Made by a program: the position numbers and the translations under genes
Part shown: piece by piece, positions 17,259 through 64,000 of the stretch
How positions within the stretch are numbered: position 1 is the first letter of the stretch
Layout: every line of letters starts with the position of its first letter
The notes under the pieces: generated by a model
Seen by the model: only the letters and a program-made list of their open reading frames with translations
The model's database searches: none
Told to the model about the DNA's origin: nothing
Assembly: GCF_002105155.1 (NCBI RefSeq)
Contig: NW_019029013.1
Coordinates: forward strand, 372,001-436,000
Direction: 5' to 3'
Length of the DNA stretch: 64,000 nt
From: Lobosporangium transversale
Lineage: Eukaryota > Mortierellomycota > Mortierellomycetes > Mortierellales > Mortierellaceae

Positions 17259-20200
17259 TTAATTGCGTTTGCCCTTTAACTTCTGTACTTTCTTCATCCT
17301 GGACTCCGCGTTCTTCTCTCCCTGATCTGCTTCGAGTCCACTCATGATGCCCTTGATCTTTGCATTGTATGCCTGATCTTTCTCTCTCTGGTCTTTCAGC
17401 TTCTCTCTGGCCACGAACTGTGCATCCTTTCTCAACTCGCGAATTGCTCCCTTCTTTTCCTTCTTTACCTGCATTTGCAGCTTGTGGGCCTGAGCACGTT
17501 CCACGTCTGGATCGTAATGCTTATCTAACGAGTAGCCTTCCTCGAATTTGGGCACATATGATGCAATTGGTACAGGTTTGTGCGCTTGCAGCTGTAATGG
17601 TGCACGGCTGTCTGTTGAGAATGACTCTAGCTTCTGAATACGATCCAATGATGCAGAAAGACGGTCTTTGAGAGAAGATGAAAAGTTGAGGTTCTGGTTG
17701 TCGATGCTTTTAGATGATGAGAGTATTTTAAGGAGTCCGATGGGTCCTTCGAACATCTCTTTATAGGCACTGGTAGATGCGTAAAGAAGCGCATACTTCA
17801 TTAATAGGTCCGCGGCTGCTGACATAGCCGATACCTTGTATTTGTTGTTCTCAAGAACATTGCCATTCTTCTTGAACAGGCCAATTGACAGACGCTCAAC
17901 TTCAATAGAGCCCAGCCCTGAGATGGTCATCTGCAAGGAAGCAATGTCTAATTCCTGAATCGGAAATAGACCTGGTAGTTTGTCCAGATCATCACCAAAC
18001 GTGCCCTTGGGAGCCAAGTAAACCAATGCTGAGGATAAAAAGTTGATAGCCTCAGGGATCACGCGCTTAGACAACTTTTGGTAATCCAAAAACAAGTTGC
18101 AAAGCATCAAGCCCGATGCTAAGTCCTTGAAAGACTTGATCTGGCATTGACCTAAATACTGACTCATTAAGAGCTGAGCTGGTGTGATGACCTGGTGTTG
18201 AAAATCTGAAGTAGAGTATATTTCGCCCAAGATACGGAAAAAGGTTAGCTTATCGATAGTAGGGAAGCCGGACTTGGTCTCCGAAGCAAGATCTTTGATG
18301 AGCTCAGCTTCAAAGGATTCTAAGAAACCGAGTATACATTCTGTAGCATGGTCGCCCAACTGTGATGTCATGGCATAGATATGGCGAGTGAGTTTGTTGA
18401 GAACTGCAATAGGAAAGCTAGCTTCAGAGGCAGAGATCTGGAAAACATAGTCAAGTAGGACAGGGTAAAATATCTGCATCTTAGCCTTATTCTGAGGTGA
18501 GAGCTTGGGATGGTGGAGCGCACGGATGCGATGCACTACTGTAGGTACATGCTCAAGTTCAATGTTTTCAATGATTGACAGGAAATGCTCTAGAGATGTC
18601 GGACTAGGGAAAGTGTAAGGCAATTCAGCAGCGGCAGCAGCAGCATCAGGATTGACATCGATCTTGGCCTTCTTTGCCGTAGACTTAGTGGAAGTAACAG
18701 GTTTCTTGGTCTTGGCTGCTGAGCTCAAGTCGTTAATGTCGTCTTCGTCGTCATCGTCTTCACCGCCTTTGCTCATTGGCCGCTCCATTTCCATATCAAG
18801 ATCCGAAAAGTCATCCTCTGAATCTTCTTCCTCATCGCCATCCTCTTCATCATCATCTTCCGCTTCGCTTTCTTCCTCTTCCTCTATGTCTTCTTCTTCT
18901 TCTTCTTCACCCTCAGAGTCACTATCATCGACCTTGACAGTTCTATGCTTCTTGCTGGGCATTCTACCGGGTTTGGTTGCTCTGAATGTTGACTCATCCG
19001 CATCCATACCCGCACCGAGGCCAAACTCGTCATTTTCATCAGGAGCAAAGTCATCATCTAGATCATCAGCAGCTGGCGCAGCTTTTCTCCTCTTTTTGTA
19101 TCCCCCCTGTTCATCTTCTATCTCTTCTGAAGGGAGACCCTCCATACGACGCTTGCGAGCTCTCTCTGACTTCTCTAACTTTTCGACCTCCTCCTGTGCA
19201 ATCTCCTCCTCACTCTTCATACGATCCTGAGGTTTAGCACGTCTGTCAAAGGCTAGTTCCCGAATATGCTTATCATAGTCATCATCGAAGCCCTTATCCA
19301 AGGCGCCGCCCTCTCTGTCGGCCTTCATCCTTTCTTTTTCCTCATCTGCGAGACGATCTAAAGCGCGGGCAACTGTGCTACTTTGTGATGGCAAGGGTGC
19401 ACGTTTAGGACGACGTTCTTCTGCATCTGGGTTTGAAAAGCCGAGTAATCCACGAATATCCTCCAGTTCATCATCTAGTTCCTTGGTGATATCATCAATC
19501 TCTTCCTTTTCCTTTTGACGTTCATGCTTATGGAATTTGGATTTCGCAATGATTTCCTTCATGACCTCAGCTTTAGTTTTGGGTCGTCCATCCTCATGTG
19601 TGTCAGATGGAAGAGTCTCATCATCGAATCCTCCGAAGTGAGTATGGGATACAATGTCCCTACCGATTTGGCCTCTGTTGTCATCATCATCATCATTAAA
19701 TCCAAGTTCTGTTTCATCGAAATCATCGAGTCCTGCAAGCGATTGACCGTAATGTGTGAGATCTGCTTCATCTTCTAAATTGAACATGGCTCCTCCTTTA
19801 GCACGGCTCTGTTTTTCGCGTGTGAAACGTTCAAGCATCTTTTCTTCCGGTGTCATGTTGGGATTCTCTTCTCCGAAACGTTTATCGATCAATCCTCCAG
19901 CTTTGTTCTTCTTTTGCATTTCTTTCAACAGAGTTTTGCGACGCTAATTAAGAACAAGCAGTCAAGAGACAATTGTAACAGAGTCAATTTACATGGAAAT
20001 GAATAGTGGGTCATGAGAAGTATTAAGATAAAATCATAGTGAATACAAAGTTCCATGACATACGTTCTCCTCGCCGATTTGCTTAGATAGTGTGGGTTTG
20101 CCCTGGACGCCTTTGATCTTGCGACCCAGAACATCGTATTTTTGACGAGTGGTCTTGATCTCAAACTGGTTCATAGCTTCTTTAATGTGGGCTAGCTTTT

Positions 20201-54082: not shown

Positions 54083-54628
54083 ATGTCCATAAAAACAGTA
54101 ACTTATCGAAGTTTTTTTTTTTTTTTTTTTTTTTTAATTTTCTTTACTTTTGTTTAAATGGGACCTGATTAGGCTGACGAACACCACGATGACGCTGCCG
54201 TCGATGTGAAGAAGAAGAGAACGTTCCGCAAGTTCTCTTACCGCGGTATTGACCTCGATAAGCTCTTGGACCTGTCCTCTGAGCAGTTGATGGATTTGGT
54301 GAACGCCCGCCCTCGCAGACGTTTCCAACGCGGTCTTAAGCGCAAGCCCATGGGTTTGATCAAGAAGCTCCGTCAGGCCAAGAAGGATGCTCCAGCCTTG
54401 GAGAAGCCCGCTGTGGTCAAGACTCATCTTCGTAACATGATTGTTGTCCCTGAGATGATTGGCTCCATTGTGGGTGTCTACAACGGAAAGACTTTCAACC
54501 AGATTGAAATCAAGCCTGAGATGATCGGTCACTACTTGGGAGAGTTCTCCATCACCTACAAGCCCGTCAAGCACGGTCGTCCCGGTATTGGTGCTACTCA
54601 CTCATCTCGCTTCATCCCTCTCAAGTAA
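54083..54628 (+). CDS. RPS15: 40S ribosomal protein S15 (uS19)
   Basis: Exon 1 (54083-54097, MSIKT) and exon 2 (54173-54628) in phase 0; 156 residues, close to the yeast length of 142. The body is unmistakable: [39 protein letters not shown]-type segment ([16 protein letters not shown]), [35 protein letters not shown] and the C-terminal SSRFIPLK. It sits in the head of the 40S subunit with its tail reaching the decoding centre and is needed for pre-40S export. Codons are strongly biased to the optimal set. The 15-base first exon is inferred from ATG plus a phase-0 GTAACT donor; the T-run in the 75-base intron acts as polypyrimidine tract. The TAA stop runs into 15 A residues. Confidence 0.92.

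Positions 54629-55397: not shown

Positions 55398-55427
<30 letters not shown>
54629..55427. other. Convergent intergenic region
   Basis: 3' flanks of RPS15 and of the phosphatase-kinase-ligase gene. T-runs at about 54896-54918 and 55401-55429, the second being the complement of an A-run that starts in the stop codon of the minus-strand gene. A 93-codon open frame at 54826 is not credible. Confidence 0.6.

Positions 55428-55429
<2 letters not shown>
55401..55429. repeat. T-run of 29 bases (A-run on the minus strand, fused to a stop codon)
   Basis: On the minus strand this is an A-run that starts with the second base of the TAA stop of the RNA-repair gene. Confidence 0.95.
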
Positions 55430-55431
<2 letters not shown>

Positions 55432-58400
55432 CTTTCTTCATCATAACGTGGTAAAGTTTCTTCATGCCATAGTAACAGATTCGCAACCTGTTCTTTAGTG
55501 CCCCACCGCTCTTCTCCTGCAATGAAATCTGGACGGACTACCTTGGATCGCATCAGTAGCCGATCATTCTGATCGACCCGAAAGTACAACCCCTCAACAC
55601 GTTCCTGTTGCCTTTTTGCTTGTGTACACACCGAAGTTTGATCTACTTTTTTCTCTTCTTCCTCTTTCTCTTGTTCACTACGGCGCATCAATGCTGATCG
55701 GGATTGAAGCATTTCAATAGTCCATTGTAGCGTTTTTTTTACATCTCCATATACATCCTCTGGGATCTGAATGATCGGGTTGAGTGTCAACTGTGTCTTG
55801 GCTACTGCAGATCGGAAGAGCTTTCGAGATACGAATGTCCCTGTTTTAACATCGTATAGATCAAAAGGTACAAACCACGACTTAAGACCTGTGTACTCGA
55901 CTGAATGTTTTGCATAGAGCCATTCACCATAAAGGACATAGGGCGCCAGACCGTCTTGAAGAACTCTGTCCTCATCCACATATTCATTCTCATCCTCATC
56001 TTCTTCATCTTCCCAGGATCCATCATCATCGCCATTCGTAACGTCCCCAGCCGAAGCAGAACTGGTCCTGTCGTAAACATTACTATGCTCTGATGCTTCA
56101 TCTTCGCTCTCTGAGTCCTCTCTCTCCTCCTCTGCTTCTACTCCCTGTTCTTTGTTTCCCCTTGGGTCGTTATCATCAAATCGCCAACGGCCTTCACAGA
56201 GATACAGGATGTCCTCCCTATGTTTGTCTAACCAACTGTTCAGTTTCTTAAACTGCCAATGATCATCTGGATGTACAAAGTGGTTCCTGTTTTGGACTCG
56301 GATCTTGGGTGGTGGCCCAGGGGCTGTAATGCCTGCAAATCCGTTCATGGTTTTGAAATGCACTACACTGAACCCAATGTTAGCACCATCCATCTTTTCT
56401 TCTACCGTTAGGACCTGGTGCGGTTTAGGCACAAAGTATTGGTATAAGGCTGAGGGCGGTAGAAGTAAATCTGATCGACTAATGGCTGAATTCTTTTCTT
56501 CAGATGCAACAACGGATGGTGATAAAAACAGATCCGCGATATGATCAGTTTTTTGCGCCAGACTCTGTCGTATCGTTAGCGGATCGAATAGATGAGGCGT
56601 TCTCGGATATTTCTGCATGGGTCGGTCATAATTGATTAGTGGCGTCGCAAACGAGACGCCCCTGGGAGAGGCAGATTCCTGTCCTTGGCTTTGGATCTGA
56701 TTTGTGGACAATATTGTGGTATCAACAGAAGGGCTCTTCCAGTTACCCTTAATAGGTTTCTTGACCGCTGGTCGGTGCCCGGTTAAAGATGCAAATCGCA
56801 ATGCTTTGGAAGATGATAAATCCAAAAAAGATACATCTGGAAGTAAAATTTGAGATGAAAACTGTGGATTGCTGTCTTCCTTTTGATCATTAGCATCGCC
56901 ACCGGCTTTACCGGCCTCTCTTAAGTTATGGCTTTTACTCTCATGAGTAAAACCATCGTAACCACCGTTACCGTGATTATCGTCCTCTTCAACGTCTTCA
57001 TCCTCCTCTTCCACACTCTCCATGCTTACAGGTGATAATACTTTTGCATCGCCACTTTCTGGTGATGTTAAAGATGATATAGTAGAAAAAGTTGTCGCCA
57101 TGCTCACAACAGTAGCGGCAGTGCCATTAGACTTTCGCTGCAGCGCCTTGGTAGGAATAAAAGCTGGCCTAGTCTTGATGGCGAGTTTCGTTTCCACTCC
57201 ATTCGTTGACGTCCTAAGTTTAGCTGGGGCATCCGCTGCAAACTTTTTCATAATTTGCAACAATTGATCAATCCCTTCATCGTCCCCAACTTCTACTAGA
57301 GTCTTACACCAGTTCCCTTCCTTATTCAAATTCGGAAACTCAAATCCTTTTGCAAAACTACGAACGACCTTGTCCCCTTTTCCAGCTTCCACGGTTGGAT
57401 GGTTTTCTCTCGAGTCCACACGTTTAATACACTGCTCAATATTCCTCGAGAACCAGACCATGGCCGTCTCATCGGGCTGGAACGCGAGCTCATACCATTC
57501 CTTCCGTTCTGCCATGGTTGGGTTGCATCGATCGATAAAGACGGTCATCGGTAAAGCCTTGCCAGGCCCACGGACCGCAAGCGATTGCTGCTGACGTCTC
57601 ATATTCTGCGCCAGTAGCCTCTCACAGACTGCGCGTGACCCTAACTCATCCTGTGAAATACGCTCAAAATGCTCTGGAAACCCTTGCATCAAAGTTGTGA
57701 CTAGATGACTCTTACCACTTCCAGGTAATCCTACAAGGATAACCAATTTCGGTGCGGATACCAAGGGTGCTCCGGAAATATGGAATGAAGGGCGTTCCTT
57801 CGAGTTTTTTCCATGGCCACCGCTGCCACCGCCATTCTTTTTAGACTTTTGACCCCGCTGAAGCTGTCGAGCACGCATATTATGTTGGACAATCAAATGA
57901 TGCTGATGGTGTTGTGAACCAGGGATCTTTATGATCTTCTCTGGCGGGGGTGGCACAAATGTGTGTGCAGGTTCCAGAGATATTTTGCGAGGGCCCTTCT
58001 TGCCCTTCTTTCCAGGCTTTCTACCTCCCCTGGCATAGTCATCGTCTGATAATTCATCTCCTTCATCTTCTGCGCCAGCAGCGGCGTTTACAGGTGGAGT
58101 CGATGACGAAGAGGGTTTTGGTTTAGGTGGGTGATCTCTCTTTGCTTCTTTCTTAGCCTTGGTAGTGACGGAAGTAGTAGTGTTTGATTCAGATTTAGAA
58201 TCGAGTCCTCCTCCATCTCCCTGCCCTACTCCAGGGACATGGTCATGGTCAGATACGGTTATATCTGAAGAAGAGCTAATGTTAGTACCTCTCGATGAGC
58301 TCGATCGCGCAGATCTGGAGGAGGACTGCCTCCAAAGCCAATCACCATAAGCTTTGACTGCTTTCTCTTGTTCAACGCTCTCGATACTTCCCGGTCGCAA

Positions 58401-59888
58401 CTCTCTCAAATACGCTATCGCATCTTTAGCCGTCATCATAGGTTGAAATCGGTTCAGACATTCACTCCTCTGAACGGAGTATCCTACAAAAGTCCACTCC
58501 TTTAGTGACTCCAATTCATCATCATTTTCATCTTCCTCAAGCAAAAAAGAACAGCATTTCCCTGGAAGCGTTGCAGCAACTGTTTCCTGATTTCCAAGCC
58601 CCTTGCGGAAATAATCCAAATCATATGGATGCACATTATTGTGCTTGATGCATTCTGTACAGTATCCATGGGCCTCATGACCCAACGCTCCAAATCGGAT
58701 CAGGTAAGCCGCTAGAACAATACCCGCCCTGCCTTTTCCTCCTCCACAATGAATTAATGTCGCTCTCTGATGAGGGTATTCTGGCGGTGTCAATAGTTCT
58801 GGGTTGGGTATCTCAACACCGTCTGCCATATCTGCCGTTGTTGTTGTTGTTGTTGCACATCCAGTGCGTATGCACCATCCCATTAACACCTCAAAAACCT
58901 CTGGGAATCCAGGCGCTTTTCGATTCTCGACTGGTACAAATGCATTCCTGATCAGTTTCGGGACTGATGTTGGAGAAATTTGTTCATCTCGTTTCTGTTG
59001 TTGTTGTCCATGAGAAGACTGATGGTGGAACCATGTTGGCGATAAGGGTGATTCTCGGATAAGGGTGATCACCAATCGGAACCCTGCCTGTTCCAATGCA
59101 TCTATATCCTGCTCATTCCTCGGGATTGAACAACCTGCGACTGAACATGAGTGCGTCACGTTCAGATACGAAAAAAACCGAGGCATGTTATGAGGTGTTT
59201 TCTTTTGTGGCCACAGAGTTGCCTGCCAAGAGGATGATATGCTTGAATTGCCTAGAAGCGTAGTCTGCTGAATCTGAACCTGACGCTCCCACGCAAGTAG
59301 AGTCTCGTTTTTGTGAGACCTTTGTACAACAAGCGAACGGCGTGTATTGATAGCAATTGAGGCATTTGTCGCAAAAATAATGGCTAATATGTTATGATAG
59401 AGGTGTTTTTGAGGTGAATTGAGTGAGAGATAGTAACGCTGTGGAGGTCCTAAAGAGGTGAGTGTATCCTGACCGGATGGAAGGATGTCAATCCGGATAT
59501 TGATCTGTCGACTGAGGTAGCAGAGTGCTGTAATGATGTATGTTTGGATCGGAAGGATTGTCTCTGCATTAATGATGTTTGAACCCAAGTGATCTGGGGG
59601 AAAGACCAGATCGATAATAGGCTCGTCTGCCTGAACATCAAGATCCAATTCCTGTTCCAGGTCGAGACCATTTGCCAAAACGTCCAATGAAGCTCGGAGC
59701 TCCACATCTGGGGAAATTGAAGAAGAAGAAGGTGAAAGTAGAAATGAGGTTGTTTCCAATACTGCGGACCAGAAGAGAATAGAGGAGTCGAAGAAATCCG
59801 CATCCTTGAAAGCAGCAGCAGCGTTAGTGAGAGTCAGTTCCAATGAGCCATTCAGGGCGGCAGAGAGGCTTTGATTATTATTTGCCAT
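55428..59888 (-). CDS. Fusion protein: Cys-phosphatase, P-loop polynucleotide kinase and RNA ligase
   Basis: One exon, 1486 residues. Module 1 (about 235-525): a dual-specificity-type phosphatase with active site HCGGGKGRAG, Cys381 and Arg387, and the tail AIAYLRELRPGSIES. A Ser/Lys/Pro-rich linker follows. Module 2 (about 712-885): a kinase with Walker A GLPGSGKS (720-727) and the IDRCNP motif (about 795) typical of 5'-OH polynucleotide kinases. After another disordered, acidic linker comes module 3 (about 1140-1486): a covalent nucleotidyltransferase with motif I KMDG (Lys1165, the expected adenylylation site), LYGEWLYAKHSVEYTGL and FVPFDLYD (motif III region), EGLYFR (motif IV) and MRSKVVR (motif V). 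This is the RNA-ligase/ATP-grasp-like ligase superfamily. Together the parts suggest an RNA end-healing and sealing enzyme; what the phosphatase acts on is unknown. N-terminal 230 residues are unassigned. The start is the first ATG; the gene lies convergent to RPS15 and downstream of RRP12. Confidence 0.88.
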
Positions 59889-60811
59889 TTTACGATAGAT
59901 TTCTTTTTTTTTTTTTTTGCAATATCAAAAAGGCGCAATTGACTTGAACGGTTTGCTGTATCTTTGCGTTGTAACTTGTTCGAGATTTAGACAGAAGCAC
60001 ACATGAAGAAACATATACACAGTTATGCTATTGACATGTCATAAAAGACCATTCAAAGTCAAAGATAAGAAAGAAAAATATGACGCATTTCAAGATGAAT
60101 ACCACTTGTTATAATATTTAAAAGAATTGACAGTTTTTCCTACTTATGGGAATCTGACATACAAAAAAAGAAAGAATAGGGCTATTGCTAACAAGCTACA
60201 GTTTACCTACCAAATGGCTAGATAAAGTAAACAAGAATGGAAATTGCTCTGTAATCAGACGTAGGGGGAATCAAAGCACAGATGAAATATGATTCGGGAG
60301 GTGGGGCGAGAATGAGACGAGATTTGTTGATGAAGATGACTGAGATTCTTCTTTTCCCAGTCATTTTTAAAGTTGGATGGTGTCACCAGTGCGGCAGTAC
60401 AGTCACGCCTGCCCTTGAGAAGAGAGCAACAAAGACTTGTGTGTGTTTATCTTTCTTTTCACTTGTGCGACGTATTCAACTAGGGAAAAGCTTGGGATAT
60501 TTGAGCATGTTCTCCATCAAGCTTTTGAATCCAAGACCAAGATTATTTTTTTTTAGAAACATCTGTTAATATCTGTTATCAAGCTACACCATAGTTTGAT
60601 GTTTAAAGTAATATTTTAATTTGTTCGCAGTTACAAACAAATATATCAATGCAAACGACATGTCATGAAGGTTGTATGTAGGGAATAATGATAAAAAAAG
60701 AGATCAAAAAGGCAAAGTGAAAACAAATCTTCACTTGCTTACAATCAATATACTAAAAAATAATAAAAATATGCAAAAGAGATGCTACTATGATAAAGAA
60801 TTCCTGATCCT
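59889..60811. other. Intergenic spacer
   Basis: Promoter of the phosphatase-kinase-ligase gene and 3' flank of RRP12. An A-run on the minus strand (complement of 59904-59918) lies about 20 bases before its start codon. A 95-codon frame at 60282 (+) has no recognisable features and is not called. Confidence 0.6.
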
Positions 60812-63800
60812 TTAACGTCTGCTAGGCTTGCCTAGTTTGCGCTTATCGGACTTGCTCTTATTAGTCAGACTCAGTCCTTCTTTGGTTCCTTTACGCAACG
60901 AGGTCAGTGGTACGTATGCATAAGGATCTACACGTCCCTTCTTCTTCACATCTCCTCCTGCCTTCTTGGCCTTGAACTCTTGTCCAATCTTCTTGACTTG
61001 CTTTGGATCCTTTGCACCCTTTCGACGAATAGGTCCAACACCCCCTTGAATGTCCATGTCCATATCCTCATTTTCATTATTACCCAATGCTCCACGCTTA
61101 TTAGTCTTGTTGAACCTAATCTTTCCACCTTGACCACGTGTGAAACCATCTACAGATTTTAATGACTCCAGGTAATTGTTCTCTGCTTGATCCAACTCCA
61201 TCGTCTCTTGATCCATCTCTTCTTCCTCATCCACATTATTCTCGTTATCAGAGTCACTATCATCAATGACAAGCCTGCCATCCGACGATGTCTTAAAGGA
61301 CGATGCAAGGTCCTTAACCTTGCGTGTCGTCTGTGAGCTTGGGTGGGATGCCGTGACACGCGAGACCACAGTGCGGTCCAAGAAATCCAACGGAGTATCG
61401 CCTTCCTCCTTGATCCAGGCATCAGCTCCCTGCTTCTTCTTATTGGACTTCTTTGCAGTAGCCTTGTTACCCTTATTGCCACCTTCCTGATCATCATCCT
61501 CATCCTCATCCTCGTCATCACTGAGGTCACTCTCACTACCATATAAAGCATCTTCGTATGCATTTCCAAACTTCGCTTGTTGCTTGGCTGTCTTCTTGGT
61601 ATCATCCTCTGCTTCATTCTCTTCACCATCCATATCCATGCCTGAGGCGCTATTGTTCTTCTTATTACGCTTAGCACGCTCACGACGCTTCTTGATGTTG
61701 ATCAACAATTTCTTGTCAGCCTCTGGTACGTACGCGACTACTTCATCATATCCGAAACGACGGACTAGACGTTCCAAAATGTGACGCACTTTGACCTTAA
61801 AATGTCCCTTGTGTTCATGAGACCAACGGATCATACCACTGACAATCTCCTGCAAGTGCTGACGGACAACCGCGGCATCCAAGCTGACGGTCGTCACTTT
61901 GATAAAGCCCAGAGCAGACTTCACAATCTCACGATTGGATGAGTTCACGAATAGGTGCATGGTTCCAATCATCTCTGAAACCATAGCAGGCTCTAAATCC
62001 TTATGGAACTCAAATAGTAGGCGTGACAGTGATGTGATTGCAGCAGAAACCATGTGAGGGGTTGTACCAGCCAAACCAGCGGTCACCATGGTGAAATACT
62101 CACTGATGCTGGCTTGAGTCTCACTAGGTGCACCCTCCATATCGCCGACACGCTCTGTCGAGATGATTCCGCCAGCCTTCATTTTGTTTCCCATAGCTAC
62201 CAAGAGCGCATACGCAATATCTCGAGTCTTCTCATTCACTTCCTTAGTAGCCACAACAACCTCAGACAGAATTGAAGGAACGAAATACAAGTCGGTAGGA
62301 TCCAATAGAGAAACTACCTGCCCAATCAATGACAGACGAGCACGTTTAGCTGTAGCTGTAGCAGCAGCAGTGGTCTCGAGAATCGTGCGTATCAGCTCCT
62401 CAAGGTTTGATTTCAACACAGTGCGGCCAGTTTCGGTCTCTGTCATTGAGTTGACAATCTTGTAAGCCTTCTTCTGGAGAGCAGGATCGGCATCGTTGGC
62501 AAACAAGTTGACAACTGCCTCGTACAGGCTGATCAAGCTGGGTCCATCGACATATGCAACCATGATATCAGCAAGGTCCATCAAGTTGTGTGATGCAGGA
62601 GGTGCATCTCCTTGTTGAGCAGGACTCTGGACAGTCGTTAAAGCCGTATTAAGTTGAGCCAAGACAGCCAAGAAAGTCTCTTGCAAATCCTTAGGGGTTG
62701 AAATGCTTAAATACATTCTCATGACTTCTAACAGGTATCCACGGAACTGCGGCAGAGTAGCCTGGAAGATGTTGAAGAAAACCATGAGGTAAGGACGAGC
62801 ATACTGCTGCAATAATGTAATATTGTTCCTGGCCTCGTCCTTGCTCATCAAATACTTGCGTTCCAAGACTGCATCACTTTCTGAGCTGTCGATAATAGCC
62901 TGGTTGCGTACAACCAAGCTCGTCAAGGCTTGACAGAGGACTGCTCGAAGATCTGGGACAGAGTAGAGAACGTTGCTGAAGCGCTCCGCAAGCTCCTTCG
63001 TGAAAGCCATCTCCATATCCACGGGCAGGTCGCAGAATCCGCTTACAAGACTCCAGATCTGACCAATCAAAGTCTCGTAAACCTTTTTCATCATACCATT
63101 CTCAGTACATTCCTGAGCCTTGAGATTAAGACGATCAGCCAGAGGAATCAGTGTACTGGAAAAGTACTCTAACTCTGTGTTGGTGATCGAGTTTTTGAGA
63201 AGGGGCAACAGCCATGCGCGACCACGCTTACCCTCCCCAGGATTTTCAATGTTGAGAGGAAGAGTGTCGAGGAAGATACGGGGGCCAACAGTGCTGATTG
63301 CAGTTGACAAGACAACATCCAAATGGGCCTTTTGGGTGAATGCAGGAGTGAAGCGAAGCTCGTCAATGATGGGAAGGAATGAAACAAGCAAGGGGTTAGC
63401 GGCGTGGTTGAGCCGCTCGAATAGAGTCTTGAGGATATCCAAAATGCCCAACCAAGCGCTCTGAAAACGAATATCGAATCCGCCCTTAATAGTGGTTGAA
63501 ATAGTTTCAATAATGCTCCTTTTTTTCTTGTCAGATTGCAATCCACGGTTCTTCTTCATCTCTTGTACTGCAATATCGATCATCCTATCCGTGATACAAT
63601 GGGTGATGAGCTGCTTTAGACAGTCAACAGTTGAATTATGAACAGAGACGGGATTAGACGAATCCAGATTGGGAAAGATGGTTTTAAAGAGCTGGACAAG
63701 AGGGACTGCAGCTTCCTGAGGCACCTGTGCTCCATGGCCTGCCGCCCTCATAGAATCTTGTAATCTCGCCGACTCGACAAATCCTGCACGAACAACATCC

Positions 63801-64000
63801 AGCCATAGAGGCATCAGTGTAGCGTCGTTAGCATTAGGTTTAAGCTCCAGCACTGCACTCATCACATGGGTAATCTTTTCAAGTCTGGAGACAATCTGGT
63901 CCATAGTTTCTGCGGGAGTTTGGTTGGCGATGGTGGCATTCTCCTGATGAACTACTACAGGGGCATCGGGTGATTCTTTTGTTGAAAGCAATGATTCAAA
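60812..64000 (-). CDS. RRP12: Ribosomal RNA-processing protein 12 (RRP12), 5' end beyond the window
   Basis: The minus-strand frame is open from the window edge to a TAA at 60812-60814, about 1060 codons without an intron. No start codon is reached; family members have roughly 1200-1300 residues, so the first 150-250 are missing. Seen: long HEAT-like helical repeats, the NUC173-type region, the conserved stretch NREIVKSALGFIKVT...HLQEIVSGMIRWSHEHKGHFKVKVRHILERLVRRFGYDEV (coding about 61730-61960), then acidic blocks and a basic tail (RGTKEGLSLTNKSKSDKRKLGK). RRP12 is a nucleolar/nuclear HEAT protein bound to pre-40S and pre-60S particles and to Ran, required for subunit export. It lies upstream, on the same strand, of the RNA-repair fusion gene. 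Confidence 0.93.
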   Translation of the reverse strand, partial: FESLLSTKESPDAPVVVHQENATIANQTPAETMDQIVSRLEKITHVMSAVLELKPNANDATLMPLWLDVVRAGFVESARLQDSMRAAGHGAQVPQEAAVPLVQLFKTIFPNLDSSNPVSVHNSTVDCLKQLITHCITDRMIDIAVQEMKKNRGLQSDKKKRSIIETISTTIKGGFDIRFQSAWLGILDILKTLFERLNHAANPLLVSFLPIIDELRFTPAFTQKAHLDVVLSTAISTVGPRIFLDTLPLNIENPGEGKRGRAWLLPLLKNSITNTELEYFSSTLIPLADRLNLKAQECTENGMMKKVYETLIGQIWSLVSGFCDLPVDMEMAFTKELAERFSNVLYSVPDLRAVLCQALTSLVVRNQAIIDSSESDAVLERKYLMSKDEARNNITLLQQYARPYLMVFFNIFQATLPQFRGYLLEVMRMYLSISTPKDLQETFLAVLAQLNTALTTVQSPAQQGDAPPASHNLMDLADIMVAYVDGPSLISLYEAVVNLFANDADPALQKKAYKIVNSMTETETGRTVLKSNLEELIRTILETTAAATATAKRARLSLIGQVVSLLDPTDLYFVPSILSEVVVATKEVNEKTRDIAYALLVAMGNKMKAGGIISTERVGDMEGAPSETQASISEYFTMVTAGLAGTTPHMVSAAITSLSRLLFEFHKDLEPAMVSEMIGTMHLFVNSSNREIVKSALGFIKVTTVSLDAAVVRQHLQEIVSGMIRWSHEHKGHFKVKVRHILERLVRRFGYDEVVAYVPEADKKLLINIKKRRERAKRNKKNNSASGMDMDGEENEAEDDTKKTAKQQAKFGNAYEDALYGSESDLSDDEDEDEDDDQEGGNKGNKATAKKSNKKKQGADAWIKEEGDTPLDFLDRTVVSRVTASHPSSQTTRKVKDLASSFKTSSDGRLVIDDSDSDNENNVDEEEEMDQETMELDQAENNYLESLKSVDGFTRGQGGKIRFNKTNKRGALGNNENEDMDMDIQGGVGPIRRKGAKDPKQVKKIGQEFKAKKAGGDVKKKGRVDPYAYVPLTSLRKGTKEGLSLTNKSKSDKRKLGKPSRR

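Follow-up and report, generated by a model that had tools for sequence, protein, structure and literature searches.

The fungal tRNA ligase Trl1 heals and seals RNA with a kinase and an ATP-type ligase carried on one chain. Another set of domains is named 'Swiss Army Knife' (SAK) domains in the Pfam descriptions, and these trace to a 2016 review by Burroughs and Aravind in NAR. A paper on jumbo phages sets out the same logic of 2H domain, phosphatase, kinase and ATP-grasp ligase (PMC7824862). A family uniting all RNA end repair steps in one chain spans fungi, protists, bdelloid rotifers and some plants, and here we describe a relative encoded in a 64,000-nucleotide stretch of Lobosporangium transversale DNA (positions 372,001 to 436,000 of contig NW_019029013.1, hereafter the window). 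Judging from its sequence, its order of protein tyrosine phosphatase (PTP), kinase and ligase is of the known SAK kind and not new, and the new points appear to be the absence of a 2H domain, common to some relatives, and a set of exchanged catalytic residues in the phosphatase.

The gene occupies 55428..59888 of the minus strand, as do all its features given below, and runs from an ATG at 59888 to a stop codon at 55428 through 1486 uninterrupted codons, with no intron required. The stop-to-stop frame measures 1498 codons, the previous in-frame stop lying 12 codons 5' of the ATG, and the chance of meeting no stop within 1486 codons of a random frame of equal GC content is about 7e-41. The motifs HCGGGKGR (residue 380), GLPGSGKS (720) and EKMDG (1164) are all there, as is IDRCNP. 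Three Pfam families exceed their curated cut-offs of 27 bits, namely PTP-SAK (PF22784; 82.9 bits, E 3.3e-23, residues 246-407), AAA_33 (42.2 bits, residues 715-852) and RNA_ligase (PF09414; 78.3 bits, in two stretches, the best at 1312-1441). The central claim of the initial annotation, a Cys-phosphatase, a P-loop kinase and a ligase in one frame, is thereby borne out, including by the profile searches that it had proposed. The phosphatase, of dual-specificity type, spans residues 236-520 with an insert (58329..59183), the polynucleotide kinase-like domain residues 708-880 (57249..57767) and the RNA ligase domain residues 1135-1470 (55479..56486), the last with a poorly conserved insert at 1237-1300.

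A search with residues 240-1486 returned 36 proteins: the window's own, 34 further full-length proteins and a shorter one (P0036). We refer to the window protein and the 34 as the Mortierella-type set, in which lengths range from 1294 to 1548 residues; 30 of the 34 bear genus or species names (Mortierella, Linnemannia, Haplosporangium, Entomortierella, Dissophora, Gryganskiella, Podila and Actinomortierella, some from one species) and four are metagenomic. By these homologs alone the host would very likely be placed in the Mortierellomycota. The 34 share 44-73% local identity with the window protein, the top two values covering only a quarter of the query. The order HCx5R, P-loop, KxDG holds in 35/35, and C381, R387, K726, D747, D786, K1165, D1167 and E1322 are identical in all 34 homologs. 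Mean identity to the window protein reaches 0.84-0.86 in three ligase blocks, 0.76 in the kinase and 0.59 in the phosphatase core, and falls to 0.19-0.29 in two linkers and the ligase insert. A basic, His-rich box (HHQHH...RGQK, residues 641-684, 57837..57968) in the linker before the kinase stands at 0.80, compared with 0.29 in the linker stretch preceding it. Two rather dissimilar proteins (P0021 and P0035) share the name Entomortierella beljakovae; they match the window protein at 56% and 46% local identity, which would fit either a second copy or a mix-up of names.

Family searches with P0036, whose domain order is N-terminal 2H-SAK, PTP-SAK, kinase and RNA_ligase, and with a Polychytrium protein (P0103) gave 136 and 284 matches, 120 of which were listed from each. 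Pooled with the Mortierella-type search these make 251 proteins, and 244 of them carry the three motifs in the same order; in the other seven a motif is absent or, in P0105, rearranged. Holders among the matches listed include Aureobasidium, Tuber, Morchella, Tilletia, many Agaricomycetes, Kwoniella and chytrids, as well as the bdelloids Rotaria and Adineta (two proteins within the PTP-kinase-ligase family), the fern Adiantum, the liverwort Calypogeia, the haptophyte Diacronema and metagenomes. The possibility that similar fusions exist as unstudied annotations in other fungi is borne out, the same order recurring in Basidiomycota, chytrids, Aureobasidium and others. As to the earlier suggestion that this order had not been characterised, the architecture is not new, given the Pfam SAK domains and its recurrence across the pooled set, but it does appear uncharacterised: we found no bench biochemistry of it in the open-licence literature, where the one paper that a text search for SAK terms brought up has the term in a table of phage annotations, and the passages of PMC11090510 examined held nothing on SAK proteins. 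Database names can mislead: 'ATP dependent DNA ligase' and 'dna ligase iii' are attached to several basidiomycete SAK proteins, and 'Dual specificity protein phosphatase 23' to some from Mortierella. Two EukProt proteins (P0105 and P0088) have two KxDG ligase motifs each; the HCx5R motif of P0105 is placed close to its C-terminal end.

We did not find the full SAK set in prokaryotes, where the best 80 of at least 429 confirmed loci hold the ligase only (80/80, by hidden Markov models), or in viruses, where among the best 80 of 102 loci a kinase frame occurs in 30/80 and a phosphatase or 2H domain in 0/80; two single-protein scans gave no match. This is weak evidence of absence, because the search patterns came from Asp-type proteins (defined below) and lay in the ligase, with one phosphatase motif in addition for the genomes.

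The folds predicted for the kinase and ligase agree with these assignments. In the model, mean predicted local distance difference test (pLDDT) values over ten residues are mostly 85-97 across the kinase and across the ligase core, and structure comparison (VIA-align rows, which comprise the kinase and ligase only) places the kinase nearest to the fungal kinases 9drz/9d8a and a bacterial Pnkp kinase, and the ligase nearest to the Naegleria RNA ligase, REL1 and T4 Rnl2. The C-terminal module is thus predicted to have an Rnl2/REL/NgrRnl-type nucleotidyltransferase fold with KxDG and groups with RNA ligases, inside the superfamily to which it had been assigned, even though no RNA ligase in the PDB was matched with confidence by sequence alone. 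No family of HAD-type phosphatases, as in T4 or mammalian Pnkp, appeared among the Pfam matches at E up to 1, and the NCBIfam PNK-3'Pase model matched in its kinase part only (23.6 bits, cut-off 502.8).

Taken together, the modules and their conservation suggest that the protein is probably an RNA end-healing and sealing enzyme built on the PTP-kinase-ligase SAK core, for ends whose cyclic phosphate has already been opened. The chemistry of the three modules, including the role of K1165, is carried over from known families. One RNA end would lose its 2'- or 3'-monophosphate to the Cys-phosphatase, and the other would have its 5'-OH phosphorylated by the P-loop kinase; the Rnl2/Naegleria-type ligase, adenylylated at K1165 (motif I EKMDG, 56394..56396, the predicted AMP-attachment site), would join the 3'-OH to the 5'-phosphate. 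Lacking a 2H domain, the Mortierella form would depend on another enzyme to open a 2',3'-cyclic end in trans, for example the cyclic phosphodiesterase (CPD) of Trl1 or the product of a separate 2H-SAK gene of the host genome. The initial annotation had spoken of healing and sealing RNA breaks; RNA end repair indeed looks likely, whereas the catalysis, the substrate ends, the division of labour and damaged RNA as the target are what we infer.

The region in which most relatives have a 2H phosphodiesterase (residues 1-235, 59184..59888) is predicted to be helical and has no HxT pair. Paired H-x-T/S-like motifs occur in 0/35 Mortierella-type proteins as against 174/216 outside that set, or 169/195 of those with at least 750 residues. 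The 26 longer relatives without the pair include 3/3 Kwoniella, Diacronema and Calypogeia; PF22547 is still listed in six of them and not in the other 20, where truncated gene models are possible, so that about 20 other relatives may lack 2H, and its absence is not unique to the Mortierella lineage. Aligned by hhalign with two sets of 2H-bearing N-termini, the Mortierella pre-phosphatase region gave probabilities of 0.3% and 0.1%, compared with 99.7% for the two sets against each other as a control. The PF13563 profile found no match, and neither did PF07823, which found none in any control either. An AlphaFold model of the N-terminus, of moderate confidence and built from 30 sequences, is helical, with ten-residue pLDDT means of 49-91 over residues 1-200. 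The N-terminus gave 77 PDB matches within an E limit of 10 and not one at 0.001 or below. We see no evidence here for a new fold and claim none, because the model is weak.

An upstream exon supplying the 2H domain was considered and rejected: the frame closes 12 codons before the ATG, the region 59800-60900 was read by eye, aligned homologs start at the same place, and a genome-wide six-frame search with PF22547 matched only two other contigs (C14 and C66). On these sequence criteria the window protein is a 2H-less variant and not a full-set SAK protein. Loss of 2H in the Mortierella lineage seems likely, because the nearest rows of the tree include Polychytrium, which carries it, although deep support in that tree is weak (84/30 and 89/60). 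The Mortierella form can be regarded as a natural deletion with which to find the RNA ends that the core accepts.

The host genome holds other RNA repair genes. Matches to the LIG, KIN and CPD domains of Trl1 stand in a row on contig C74, one LIG match crossing a TAG that is perhaps an exon end; Tpt1 is on C95, as is a piece of RtcB (C95:181451-182254, PF01139, E 1.7e-52). RtcB and Trl1 thus lie side by side in this genome as two unrelated RNA ligase systems. The Trl1 families (RNA_lig_T4_1, tRNA_lig_kinase and CPD) match C74 and not the window gene, which in turn is the only gene in the genome with PF09414 above the cut-off. A second such ligase on C38 was rejected, scoring 24.3 bits against a cut-off of 27 and reading as a DNA ligase. 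The idea that the SAK protein is the host's only tRNA ligase was likewise discarded, and a role as general tRNA ligase is unlikely because Trl1, Tpt1 and RtcB are all present. A standalone 2H-SAK exon occurs at C14:20740-20970 and C66:96900-97130, with surroundings 98.7% identical over 9.25 kb, so that the two copies are likely a duplicate or a haplotig; 2H activity may therefore be on offer in trans from this predicted gene. Two genes for HAD_SAK_1, a HAD domain of SAK proteins, lie apart from the window gene (C1:1584170 and C106:459002).

Which RNA the enzyme would act on is best approached through two possible roles. Repair of tRNA or rRNA cut by ribotoxins, as a defence in microbial conflicts, is quite conceivable, if somewhat short of an even chance. 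A bdelloid study reports ligases that respond to a fungal pathogen, and its authors propose ribotoxin repair (PMC11258130); the SAK family holds two bdelloid proteins among the matches listed, and other ligation is already provided for in the Lobosporangium genome by Trl1 and RtcB. Nevertheless, the top BLAST matches of those bdelloid ligases are, according to the same paper, bacterial or phage RNA ligases linked to tail fibres (PMC11258130), and they may not be SAK genes. Moreover, no toxin gene was met among the ten window frames scanned with Pfam (9/15 of those of at least 250 residues, plus uS19), no search having been aimed at defence genes. The bdelloid study therefore makes ribotoxin repair a lead, not more.

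A less probable role is that of a housekeeping factor that ligates natural processing ends and does not serve repair, for example during the decay of mRNA, the handling of tRNA introns or the maturation of rRNA. It would suit a gene that is single-copy in the genome and has homologs under every Mortierella-type genus name listed, and whose neighbours in the window are, by Pfam scan, the ribosome-biogenesis genes Nop14 (17259-19928), uS19 (54206-54628) and RRP12 (60812-63991). Gene neighbours in fungi, however, seldom reveal function, and a canonical Trl1 is present in the same genome. The count of one gene comes from a protein search of the 42.7-Mb genome, which returned the window gene and one weak match, a separate kinase gene (31% identity over query residues 720-853).

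The phosphatase active site differs from the textbook arrangement. The PTP P-loop motif is (H/V)CX5R(S/T) and the general acid is the Asp of the IPD loop, while the Q-loop Glu of VHZ (E134) and TkPTP (E132) are backup general acids, as stated in PMC12848742. The family profile matches VHZ/DUSP23 at E 1.3e-26, and in the alignments N322 (58923..58925) takes the place of the IPD-loop Asp. The P-loop HCGGGKGR (58728..58751) supplies C381, K385 and R387 and is followed by A388 where Ser/Thr is usual, so that the protein has neither the IPD/WPD-loop Asp nor the Ser/Thr after the P-loop Arg of a canonical HCX5R(S/T) PTP. E503 (58380..58382) corresponds to residue 134 of VHZ, residues 485-512 aligning with 116-143 of 4erc at equal length. 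Asn322 is found in 35/35 Mortierella-type proteins, Ala388 in the window protein and 34/34 homologs, and E503 in 33/34 (0.97), the exception presumably being P0027, in which no matching stretch was found.

Beyond Mortierella, 245 of the 251 pooled proteins could be aligned (P0027, P0076, P0088, P0105, P0152 and P0236 were dropped). Asn occurs together with Glu in 186 (34 Mortierella-type and 152 others) and without it in 0, and Asp occurs without Glu in 51 and with it in four, leaving four other combinations; an earlier alignment of 150/155 proteins gave the same picture. None of the 186 Asn-type proteins breaks the rule that Asn is accompanied by Glu. In this group P-loop position 385 is Lys in 185/186 and the residue after the P-loop Arg is Ala in 186/186, whereas Asp-type proteins have that Lys in 5/55 and Thr after the Arg in 52/55. 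Gln507 was present in 58/58 Asn-type proteins outside Mortierella in the earlier alignment. Mapped onto an unrooted tree that comprises 92 proteins, the two states can be explained by four label changes, compared with 29.6 in shuffles, which we read as one main Asp/Asn change. Rows with both Asp and Glu (P0064 with P0073, P0118 and P0145) sit inside Asn+Glu groups; P0145 lacks the loop in the later alignment, and P0181, also Asp+Glu, is outside the tree. The phosphatase insert (residues 403-480, 58449..58682) has H404, C410, C413, H420, C445 and C477 identical in 34/34 homologs and is a candidate metal-binding site. The chytrid protein P0103 has a different insert in the same place, of 31 residues with five Cys.

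Most likely, then, the phosphatase would rely on its Q-loop Glu (E503) for acid/base catalysis, the IPD-loop Asp having been lost. We tentatively extend this to a broader proposal, on which we would not yet stake an even wager: in a large group of SAK proteins from fungi, bdelloids and some plants the general acid may have been relocated, the IPD-loop Asp turning into Asn and a Leu/Met of the Q loop into Glu, with Lys brought in and Thr changed to Ala in the P-loop. What is a backup in VHZ-like enzymes would then be the main mechanism, adapted to RNA ends that carry a 2'/3'-phosphate; the Mortierella lineage would in addition have no 2H step, heal and seal non-cyclic ends, and carry an added metal-binding insert. 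The direction of the move is a matter of inference, the tree being unrooted. Because the exchange largely tracks lineage, the independent Asp/Asn exchanges are few, perhaps a single one. The initial annotation called the protein a candidate self-contained enzyme; the three core modules are there, but the Mortierella-type proteins have no 2H motifs, and full self-containment is therefore doubtful. The residue exchange offers an exact and cheap test of Cys-phosphatase function in the absence of the canonical acid.

An alternative, which we consider unlikely, is that the phosphatase domain is a sensor of phosphorylated ends or a substrate trap, in which Cys381, Arg387 and Lys385 hold the phosphorylated RNA end during kinase and ligase action, or gate the ligase. 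The constancy of Asn322 and Ala388 would fit such a role, all the more as mutants in which that Asp is changed to Asn or Ala trap their substrates and as the PRL phosphatases, in which Ala replaces the Ser/Thr, are slow enzymes. On the other hand, the retention of Lys385, Glu503 (186/186 of Asn-type proteins) and Gln507 suits chemistry, and a Q-loop Glu acting as acid has precedent in the paper cited above (PMC12848742). Finally, that three separate genes were joined by the assembly or the reading frame is extremely improbable, since 34 other full-length proteins, some of them conspecific, share the fusion, and homologs in fungi, chytrids, animals and plants already contradict it.

Two further observations concern the gene and its kinase. 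About 29 A in a row, at 55398-55427, directly follow the T of the gene's stop codon; in a gene without introns they could hint at retroposition, or they may have arisen by chance in a region rich in A and T. A solo kinase at C1:589782-590165, 31% identical to the window kinase, resembles 9drz/9d8a by eye and has NQDDLG and DRCN motifs.

Compared with known systems, the window protein differs from Trl1 (LIG-KIN-CPD) in ligase family and in domain order, and the CPD is found in Trl1 only. T4 Pnkp with Rnl1/Rnl2 divides the work between two chains and uses a HAD phosphatase, whereas here a Cys-phosphatase is joined to the other modules in one chain. The Naegleria gruberi RNA ligase and Trypanosoma brucei REL1 are solved chains without healing modules, about 15% identical to the window ligase. 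Among named solved structures VHZ/DUSP23 comes nearest to the phosphatase module; it has the Q-loop Glu in common with that module but retains the IPD-loop Asp and the Thr after the P-loop Arg, where the window protein has Asn and Ala. The SAK proteins (PF22784/PF22547 with PF13671 and PF09414) share the order PTP-SAK, P-loop kinase, RNA_ligase, and from these relatives the Mortierella-type form is set apart by its helical N-terminus, its Cys/His insert and its long, poorly conserved linkers.

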